A program made the position numbers and the translations under genes. A stretch of DNA of 64,000 nt from Desulfarculus baarsii DSM 2075 (lineage in GTDB: Bacteria; Desulfobacterota; Desulfarculia; Desulfarculales; Desulfarculaceae), in NCBI RefSeq assembly GCF_000143965.1, contig NC_014365.1, positions 3,499,501 to 3,563,500 of the forward strand. The letters are read 5' to 3'. Of the stretch, positions 479 through 48,793 are shown in pieces. The notes beneath the pieces were generated by a model. It ran no database searches. It was not told the origin of the DNA and saw only the letters and a list, made by a program, of their open reading frames with translations. Every line of letters starts with the position of its first letter. Position 1 is the first letter of the stretch.

Positions 479-2239
<1,761 letters not shown>

Positions 2240-2253
2240 TTCTTGGCCTTCGC

Positions 2254-3414
2254 TCAAGCTTCCTCTCCGAAACGATCCTCGAACAGACGCTCCAGGGCTT
2301 CCAGGGCCTGATGGGCTTGGCCGCCCATGGCCCGGGCCAGCAGTTCGCTGCCCTTGGGCGCGTCCAGGGCCAGGATGGACAAGACGCTGTCGGCCTCGGC
2401 CTCCACGCCGTCTTTGTGCAAAGTGATCTGGCAGTCGAAGCCGCCGGCCAATTCGGTTATCTTGGCCGCGGCCCTGGCGTGCAGGCCCAGGGCGTTGACC
2501 ACGCTGAGGACTCTTTCGTGTGGCTCTTGGTTGGCTGCGTCCATTTTGCTAGATTCTGGGGTGGTCGTGGCGCGCTCGCGGCCGCCCTTCAGCTCCATGA
2601 GTTTGTTGTAGATCGCTTTTCGCGTTTGCCCCGTGGCCGCCGCCACCCGCCGGGCCAGTTCACCCGGCGATTCCCGGCCCTCGGCCAGCCCGTCGATCAG
2701 CAGCCGCCGGGCCTGATCGGCCGTGTCGGCGGCCGGCGCGGCCTGGCCGGGGCCCAGCACCAGGGTGTATTCGCCCCGAGGCTCCTCACGGGCCGTGGCC
2801 GCCACCAACCCGGCGCAGGTGTCGCGCCAGATCTGTTCGTGGAGCTTGGTCAACTCGCGGGCCACGGTCAGGGGCCGATCGCCCAGGGTCTCCAGCAGGT
2901 CCACCGCCGTGCGCGGCAGGCGGTGAGGCCCCTCGAAAATCACCAGCGGCCAGCCGGTCTGGCCGGCCCGATGCAACAGCTCGCGCCGCGCGCCGGTCTT
3001 GGGCGGCAAAAAGCCCAGAAACACCACCGGCGAGGGCTCCAGCCCGGCCACGCTCAGCGCCGCGGCCAGGGCGCTGGGCCCGGCCACCGGGCAGAGCCTG
3101 TGCCCGGCCTCCAGGGCCAGGCGCACGACCACCGCGCCGGGATCGTTGACGCCGGGCGTGCCAGCGTCGGAGACCAGGGCCACGTCCTGACCCTCATCCA
3201 GGCGGCCGACGATCTCGCGGGCCGAGCGCTGGCGGTTGGCCTCGCGGCAACTGATCAACCGCTTGCCGCTCAAACCCAGATGGGCCAGCAACTTGCGCGC
3301 CCGCTCGACGCTCTCGGCGGCGATGACCCGGCACTGGGCCAGGGTCTGAGCGGCGCGGGGGCTCAGGTCGCCCAGATTGCCCAGGGGCGTGGCCACCACA
3401 AAGAGCGTGGCCAT
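2254..3414 (-). CDS. rsmI: RsmI (16S rRNA C1402 2'-O-methyltransferase) fused to a C-terminal HPr domain
   Basis: One uninterrupted 386-residue frame encodes two proteins that are normally separate. Residues 1 to about 278 are a complete RsmI, the SAM-dependent methylase of 16S rRNA C1402: VVATPLGNLGDLS at the start, SDAGTPGVNDPG (82-93), FEGPHRLPRT (160-169), and the C-terminal helix ending AIYNKLMEL. After a polar linker (279-298), residues 299-386 are an HPr domain. It has the phosphoacceptor histidine H312 in NALGLHARAAAK and a serine, S343, exactly 31 residues later, matching the His15/Ser46 spacing of HPr. An internal ATG at M291 (2542-2544) has no convincing ribosome site, so a true fusion is favoured over internal initiation. 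ptsI follows at once, which fits a working HPr. Confidence 0.9.
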   Translation of the reverse strand: MATLFVVATPLGNLGDLSPRAAQTLAQCRVIAAESVERARKLLAHLGLSGKRLISCREANRQRSAREIVGRLDEGQDVALVSDAGTPGVNDPGAVVVRLALEAGHRLCPVAGPSALAAALSVAGLEPSPVVFLGFLPPKTGARRELLHRAGQTGWPLVIFEGPHRLPRTAVDLLETLGDRPLTVARELTKLHEQIWRDTCAGLVAATAREEPRGEYTLVLGPGQAAPAADTADQARRLLIDGLAEGRESPGELARRVAAATGQTRKAIYNKLMELKGGRERATTTPESSKMDAANQEPHERVLSVVNALGLHARAAAKITELAGGFDCQITLHKDGVEAEADSVLSILALDAPKGSELLARAMGGQAHQALEALERLFEDRFGEEA

Positions 3415-3417
3415 CGC

Positions 3418-3777
3418 TCAGTCCCCCGGCCGGAAGGCGTCGGGCAGGTGTCGCACCCGCGCGCCACCGGCGGCCAGGTCCACGGCCACCACGTCAAAAC
3501 GGCAGACGGGCGGGCCTGGCGCGCCGGCCAGATAGGCCTGGGCCGCCTGGGCCAGCCGACGGCGCTTGCGCGCGTCCACGGCCTCCTCGGGCAGGCCGCA
3601 AGCCGCGCCGCTACGCCCCTTGACCTCCACGAAAACCAACACATCGCCATCCCAGGCGATCAAATCAAGCTCGCCGGCCGTGGTGCGCACATTGGCGCCC
3701 ACCACGCGCATGCCCAGGGCCTCCAGCCGACCCCTGGCCAGGGCCTCGGCCTCCTCGCCCAAGCGCGGCCTAGGCAT
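3418..3777 (-). CDS. yraN: YraN/UPF0102 family endonuclease-like protein
   Basis: The 119-residue product matches the UPF0102 family in length and in its core, GELDLIAWDGDVLVFVEVKGR (about residues 35-55). The Glu-Asp-(Glu-x-Lys) arrangement there resembles a restriction-endonuclease-like or Holliday-junction-resolvase fold. The biochemical role of the family is poorly defined. It overlaps the end of rnhB by 8 bases and precedes rsmI-hpr; rnhB-yraN is a common gene order in Proteobacteria. Start ATG at 3777. Confidence 0.9.
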   Translation of the reverse strand: MPRPRLGEEAEALARGRLEALGMRVVGANVRTTAGELDLIAWDGDVLVFVEVKGRSGAACGLPEEAVDARKRRRLAQAAQAYLAGAPGPPVCRFDVVAVDLAAGGARVRHLPDAFRPGD

Positions 3778-47943: not shown

Positions 47944-47973
47944 TTAACTTTCGCCTGGCCCTTGGTCCATAAT
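47944..47973 (+). promoter_or_regulatory. Possible promoter before the tandem-duplicated genes
   Basis: TTAACT (47944-47949), 18 bases, CATAAT (47968-47973). The 368-base gap 47745-48112 otherwise holds only an AT-rich patch near 47873-47893 and no supportable gene. A transcript from here would have a leader of about 130 bases. Confidence 0.35.
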
Positions 47974-48112
47974 GCGGCTATCTGGCGCGCCAGCGGCGAG
48001 GCCACGGCCCTTCCCCGCGCCAAGCAAAATAGGCCTAAAGTTTCCAGGCCAACACGCCGATAAGCTAGATGAGAAGGTTGCACGACTTGATTTCGTCGAG
48101 GGGGGCGGGGCC

Positions 48113-48793
48113 ATGAGCGTCGGCGGCGTGACAATGAGCCTGATGAACAGCATCTTGCAGAGTTTCGACATCCGAGGCCAGATCGACCAGACCCTGGCCG
48201 AGGGCCTGACCGCAGAGGCCGGCCTGCTGGACGAAACACTCACCGAAACCATCGCCGAGCAGACCGCCGCACTCACATCCAGCGGCCCCGCCGAGCAAAA
48301 CCTCATGGCCGGCAACTTTTTCGACTACGACTACCAGCAGTCGAAATACCTCACGGCCAAGGTGGAGTCGCTGAGCCTCACCTGCAAGATGGAAAGCCTG
48401 CAAAAAAACCGGATCATCTCCATGCTCGATCCCTTTGGCGGCCTCTGCGTCAGCGGCACCTATGGCTCGGGCCTGGGCAAATCCGAGTACGAGGTCGAGG
48501 AGCCCCTGCGCGATAACGCCGATCAGCAGATCATCGAGGACGCCCAGGAAGACTTCGAAAAGCGCCAGGCGGCCGAAGAGGCCCAGGCCCAGGCGGCCGT
48601 GGACGGCGCGGCCCAAGACGCGGCGGTCGAAGCCACGGGCCAGGCAGTCGTCGCCACCGACGCCGAGGTCGCGGCCGACCAACAGAGCGCCGAGCCGCAA
48701 GCCCAGGCCACGACGGAGCCCGCCGCCGACGCCGCGCCGCAAGCCTCCGCCGACGCCGGCGCCGCGCATCCCTCCATCGACGTCATCGTCTGA
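48113..48793 (+). CDS. Unknown protein, first copy of a tandem duplication
   Basis: A 226-residue soluble protein of no family I recognise. Residues 5-80 (GVTMSLMNSILQSFDIRGQ... to FFDYDYQQSKYLT) are helical. The middle (about 82-143) differs from the second copy. Residues 144-226 are Ala/Gln/Glu-rich, probably coiled or disordered, ending HPSIDVIV. There is no N-terminal signal peptide. The acidic-plus-hydrophobic C-terminus (DVIV) resembles the extreme C-terminal motif of some type I secretion substrates, but RTX repeats are absent. GAGGGGGGCGGGG precedes the ATG. Confidence 0.75.
   Translation: MSVGGVTMSLMNSILQSFDIRGQIDQTLAEGLTAEAGLLDETLTETIAEQTAALTSSGPAEQNLMAGNFFDYDYQQSKYLTAKVESLSLTCKMESLQKNRIISMLDPFGGLCVSGTYGSGLGKSEYEVEEPLRDNADQQIIEDAQEDFEKRQAAEEAQAQAAVDGAAQDAAVEATGQAVVATDAEVAADQQSAEPQAQATTEPAADAAPQASADAGAAHPSIDVIV
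48121..48355 (+). repeat. Tandem duplication, N-terminal block (partner 48981-49215)
   Basis: The 235 bases are almost identical to 48981-49215 at a constant offset of 860, with no insertion or deletion. This is far closer than the intervening gene centres, which implies recent duplication or gene conversion. Confidence 0.85.

Follow-up and report, generated by a model that had tools for sequence, protein, structure and literature searches.

A fusion of the rRNA methyltransferase RsmI to the single HPr of Desulfarculus baarsii, with a candidate internal start for free HPr

We analyzed a 64,000-nucleotide stretch of the Desulfarculus baarsii DSM 2075 genome (NC_014365.1, positions 3,499,501 to 3,563,500; hereafter, the window, in whose numbering positions are given). 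On the minus strand of the window, rsmI and ptsH are joined in a fused open reading frame (2254..3414), read as a single, stop-free run of 386 codons (386 aa) from an ATG at 3414 down to 2254. The RsmI part (residues 1-278; 2581..3414, minus strand) comprises the catalytic part and a C-terminal helical part, the helices of which reach residue 283 in the structure model. It matched Pfam TP_methylase over the cut-off (residues 3-201), and its assignment to RsmI follows from the score of the NCBIfam equivalog TIGR00096 over the length of the model (residues 4-272, 190.2 bits vs. a cut-off of 167.9, model positions 2-271 of 275). The solved chains of E. coli RsmI (5hw4) and of ribosomal RNA small subunit methyltransferase I (9pzg) were matched over the whole length and over the family cut-off, although the D. 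baarsii protein, unlike these two, has an HPr part added at its C-terminus. We take RsmI to be the 16S rRNA C1402 2'-O-methyltransferase, and 2'-O-methylation at this position is the predicted function of the RsmI part in the fused protein.

The HPr part (residues 299-386; 2257..2520, minus strand) was recognized by both PF00381 (PTS-HPr; residues 301-379, 73.6 bits vs. a cut-off of 23, model positions 3-80 of 81) and TIGR01003 (residues 300-379, 72 bits vs. a cut-off of 47.9). The full-length domain score is accompanied by the phospho-acceptor histidine, H312 (2479-2481, minus strand), within the motif GLHAR. S343 (2386-2388, minus strand) follows 31 residues later, and both residues are invariant in an alignment of 13 fused proteins. 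The family matches and the alignment thus confirmed what the first-pass annotation of this DNA had read from the letters, namely a complete RsmI and a complete HPr in one frame with the 31-residue spacing of H312 and S343. The linker between them (residues 279-298; 2521..2580, minus strand) is polar, as that annotation had also noted, and partly disordered as judged by pLDDT and GC3. In an AlphaFold2 model built with 58 sequences (mean pLDDT of 90.0), two folded parts are separated by a break at residues 284-291 with pLDDT <50, and the RsmI and HPr parts are accordingly predicted to fold separately on a flexible linker.

The fused frame had been placed directly before enzyme I (EI), and this holds to the base. 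The 592 aa EI of the PTS is encoded by ptsI (479..2257, minus strand; TIGR01417, 600 bits), whose TTG start, supported by its start context, overlaps the HPr stop by 4 nt (TTGA) and whose GAGGA Shine-Dalgarno lies within the final codons of HPr. Along the minus strand, the genes run in the order L19-like, RNase HII-like, YraN-like, RsmI-HPr, EI and SmpB-like; RsmI-HPr and EI were checked against families, and the neighbors were read by sequence. The yraN-like gene (3418..3777, minus strand; recognized by a sequence motif) shares the frame of rsmI and sits 3 nt ahead of it, with a single TGA and three bases in between (window 3414-3420), and the same phase of yraN and rsmI was seen at two other loci (L003 and L012). 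One further stop loss between the two would yield a triple fusion.

The same fusion is present in 14 of the 19 genomes of the window's family with a match, the window's included (genera g1, g3 and g7). The first-pass annotation had suggested searching relatives, and this search returned 13 other fused genes, of which 12 are complete (55-60% identity) and one is truncated where its contig ends. In the other five genomes (g2, g4, g5 and g6) rsmI and ptsH are separate but adjacent, and one further family genome, which is incomplete, gave no match. Because the split relatives keep rsmI and ptsH as neighbors, we infer that the fusion arose by loss of the stop codon between them.

Two more full-length fused frames, both in a second family (f54), emerged when 395 genomes from the phylum were scanned, and a subsequent search within f54 brought its total to 12. 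Some apparent matches over residues 3-385 in distant genomes proved to be tblastn segments of separate genes that had been joined. In the nearest split kin of f54, including strain NaphS2, rsmI and ptsH share one frame with one stop codon between them, which sits at or just before the ptsH start. The fusion is therefore real, inherited and recurrent. A sequencing or assembly error that joined two genes is effectively ruled out, as the identical frame recurs in 14 assemblies of the window's family and in 12 more of the second one; the frameshift or linker stop that the first-pass annotation named as its refutation is likewise excluded by the same open frame in the 13 other genomes. In a tree of RsmI plus HPr the two families stand apart, and by parsimony four transitions between the fused and split states are required, three of which are forced by well-supported branches; precisely how many fusion events took place is uncertain on this tree, which has long branches, the window's protein among them. 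Repeated fusion is explained by adjacency, because single stop codons separate rsmI and ptsH in kin.

HPr is normally a small free protein that meets many partners. The first-pass annotation had stressed this, and it holds as a general rule with known exceptions, as HPr also occurs in fusions whose models match the HPr part found here. FruB (FPr) is a fused fructose EIIA-HPr, and DhaM carries an HPr domain with EIIA- and EI-like parts. In these two, as in D. baarsii, the HPr domain lies inside a longer polypeptide. They differ in that their HPr is joined to other PTS proteins, each serving one dedicated substrate path, whereas the D. baarsii HPr is joined to an rRNA methyltransferase and is the only one in the cell. 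The finished D. baarsii genome (3,655,731 bases) encodes one PF00381 protein, the fused HPr, and the PF00381 search found no second, free HPr elsewhere in it. HPr is also single-copy in every family genome where it was found.

The proteins around this single HPr point to a regulatory role. No EIIC of PF02378 or PF03609 was found in nine genomes of the window's family, the window's included, or in 13 genomes of f54, so that the phosphorelay proteins occur with no permease of these two EIIC families. The D. baarsii genome has one EIIA-Man protein, and EIIA-Man is present in the family as well; PtsN-like, RapZ-like and EIIA-Man-like frames, read by sequence, stand behind rpoN and hpf. No HprK or permease gene follows in the rpoN/hpf cluster (L035:7497-9305, C1 about 2178000-2179800). 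An HprK (PF07475) search gave no match in the D. baarsii genome, and in the relatives searched no match exceeded the cut-off; control of S343 by an HPr kinase is unlikely because no such kinase was found. Among solved structures, the HPr part is nearest to E. coli NPr (5t17). No GAF domain was matched in EI, which scores higher as PtsI (570 bits) than as PtsP (380 bits) and so lacks the features of the EI-Ntr (PtsP) with GAF that marks a nitrogen-type system. From its gene content, with EI, HPr, PtsN and one EIIA-Man, the PTS looks purely regulatory. The lack of a detected EIIC of either family, the presence of PtsN and EIIA-Man and the closeness of HPr to NPr suggest that the system works like PTS-Ntr, without strictly being one, as its EI belongs with PtsI.

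Brucella melitensis is known to have a regulatory PTS that lacks a permease, with EI-Ntr, NPr, EIIA-Ntr and EIIA-Man (PMC2937029). The system described here is like it in its NPr-nearest HPr, its EIIA-Ntr-like and EIIA-Man proteins and the absence of a detected EIIC. It is unlike it in that HPr is fused to RsmI, beside EI, in a cluster with ribosome-related genes, and also in its PtsI-kind EI and the lack of a convincing HPr kinase. A regulatory PTS may run on small amounts of HPr, and its fusion to an enzyme of low copy number would then be tolerable.

The first-pass annotation had proposed that free HPr could be released by internal initiation at M291, an ATG in the linker (2542..2544, minus strand) that would give a free HPr of ~96 aa. 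M291 lies eight residues before strand 1 of HPr in the model and at about the position of the ptsH start in split relatives. All 14 family fusions carry an ATG or GTG between codons -18 and -23 relative to LGLHAR (a range picked after inspection of the sequences). The conservation that the annotation had asked after is thus borne out for the start codon in general, and fails for M291 in the strict sense, as the codon can be either ATG or GTG, at positions that differ by a few codons. GTG is weak evidence here because 329 of the 429 valine codons in the fused genes are GTG, and, taken as a whole, the linkers show no excess of ATG/GTG codons (5.2% vs. 7.3% in the gene body). M291 also has no Shine-Dalgarno, with a duplex energy of +0.2 kcal/mol against -8.6 at the rsmI start and -6.6 at the EI start, so that a Shine-Dalgarno-driven start can be rejected at this codon. 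At the candidate starts of the relatives, the Shine-Dalgarno score is mostly no better than chance.

The mRNA around M291 is unusually open. In the synonymous fold test, each 17-codon window was compared with 60 refolded variants whose synonymous codons were drawn anew from that gene (the window-wide control used 40). A patch of weak structure at codons 283-299 (2518..2568, minus strand) is centered on M291 and has an MFE of -2.3 kcal/mol, and about 1% of the synonymous versions are as weak. Across the family, the fold z averages ~-0.5 over the gene body, climbs in the linker to between +1.4 and +1.6 at offsets of 0 to +3 codons relative to the candidate start, drops below 0 within the HPr domain and reaches +1.15 near the true EI start. 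The best linker window ranks first of ~112 in eight of 13 genes and within the top six in all 13. Among 4784 positions in the 42 likely genes of the window, the run starting at codon 291 is the highest, by a small margin (2.62 vs. 2.43 for the next patch). As would be expected of a dual-product gene, the family thus combines an in-frame start kept in 14 of 14 fusions with open mRNA that peaks at this start; a Shine-Dalgarno at the internal start, the further feature considered, is absent.

A Shine-Dalgarno is not an absolute requirement for initiation, and start codons without one sit in unstructured mRNA, where internal AUGs usually do not (PMC3121790). M291 is like these starts in being an AUG without a Shine-Dalgarno in the most open patch of its gene. 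It is unlike them in that this candidate start would be internal to a longer, in-phase reading frame.

Our best reading, to which we assign a probability of roughly 0.55, is that the fused gene additionally makes free HPr by internal initiation. Loss of the stop codon between rsmI and ptsH would have created the two-domain protein. Judging from the protein families, EI would phosphorylate H312, and the phosphate would pass on to PtsN (EIIA-Ntr) and EIIA-Man, with the fused HPr as the one phosphocarrier in a regulatory PTS for which no permease was detected. Free HPr would also be made by initiation in the linker, at M291, as an unstructured AUG without a Shine-Dalgarno, and this step taken alone seems slightly favored over its absence. 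The release at M291 proposed in the first-pass annotation is thus backed by the ancestral position, the ATG/GTG in 14 of 14 fusions and the open mRNA, and is weakened by the missing Shine-Dalgarno. A fuller version is more tentative, and the balance tips somewhat against it: the gene would have two products (RsmI-HPr and free HPr), its internal start would be kept by selection on synonymous codons, and f54 would have lost this start, leaving HPr obligately fused and the PTS physically tied to ribosome maturation.

The strongest competing explanation is that full-length RsmI-HPr alone is made, with HPr acting as a tethered phosphocarrier only as abundant as the low-copy RsmI, a state that a permease-free regulatory PTS would tolerate. 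The open linker mRNA would then be a relic or a codon effect of the domain boundary. Slow, AT-richer codons at such a boundary could give the same open mRNA, and the GC3 of the linker is 0.60 here vs. 0.88 expected and lies well under expectation in 11 of 13 family genes. The lack of a Shine-Dalgarno at M291 agrees with this explanation, and f54 appears to provide a precedent. The ancestral ptsH start codon is kept in three of the 12 fused genes of f54 and has been replaced in nine (by AGG, GGG, GAT, GCA, AAA, AAG or CTG), and the linkers of two of its genes (L121 and L129) have no ATG, GTG or TTG at all. HPr in f54 is otherwise single-copy, save for weak partial matches in other long frames, and is probably always fused, given the loss of the old start codon in 9/12. 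However, the open-mRNA signal in the window's family is centered on the candidate start and is like the signal near the true EI start, whereas in f54 it is much weaker and not above the rest of the gene, a comparison in which f54 is only a partial control, as it differs in base composition and linker length. The pattern fits an obligate fusion in f54 and a dual product in the window's family, and for the latter we regard production of the full-length protein alone as rather unlikely.

Two further observations concern f54. A partial second HPr match (about positions 7-52) occurs in four genomes (G322, G469, G472 and G473) in frames of 435-495 aa that encode a different protein carrying an HPr-like piece. 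The fused gene of G322 (L116:2560-2620) has a GTG at the old ptsH start with GGAGGAG upstream (duplex of -10.3 kcal/mol), and in this combination of a strong Shine-Dalgarno and a kept GTG it is unlike most of f54.

It had also been suggested that the fusion ties the phosphorylation state to an rRNA-modifying enzyme. In that case, the activity of RsmI would change when the HPr part is phosphorylated or docks to EI or EIIA, and 16S rRNA methylation would track PEP and nitrogen state. The occurrence of the fusion in at least two families is in line with such coupling, as are the f54 linkers, which are short and nearly constant in length. However, we saw no conserved linker; in the model it is disordered, and in the window's family it varies widely in sequence and length. 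Recurrence is accounted for by the adjacency of the genes. These observations speak against the suggestion, and PTS control of rRNA methylation, while possible, appears improbable. Release of free HPr by proteolysis, the other route named in the first-pass annotation, gains from the predicted disorder of the linker and loses from the absence of a conserved cleavage motif in the alignment, and it seems still less probable.

A literature search for an RsmI-HPr fusion returned nothing relevant among open-licence papers. HPr domain fusions as such are known, and the RsmI partner, the single-copy state and the apparent series from split to dual to obligate are new as far as we searched. In at least two families the sole cellular HPr is attached to an rRNA methyltransferase, and the extent to which PTS signaling needs a diffusible HPr becomes testable in these bacteria. 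Taken together, the two families line up as a natural series in which split genes are followed by a fusion that seems to retain its internal start and then by one that has lost it, a clear illustration of the way gene fusions come to be fixed. The synonymous-codon fold test can also flag hidden internal starts in other fused genes. In the window, the second strongest open patch lies at about codon 36 of the gene at 47972-48790 (plus strand), where the true start may be downstream of the first ATG/GTG.
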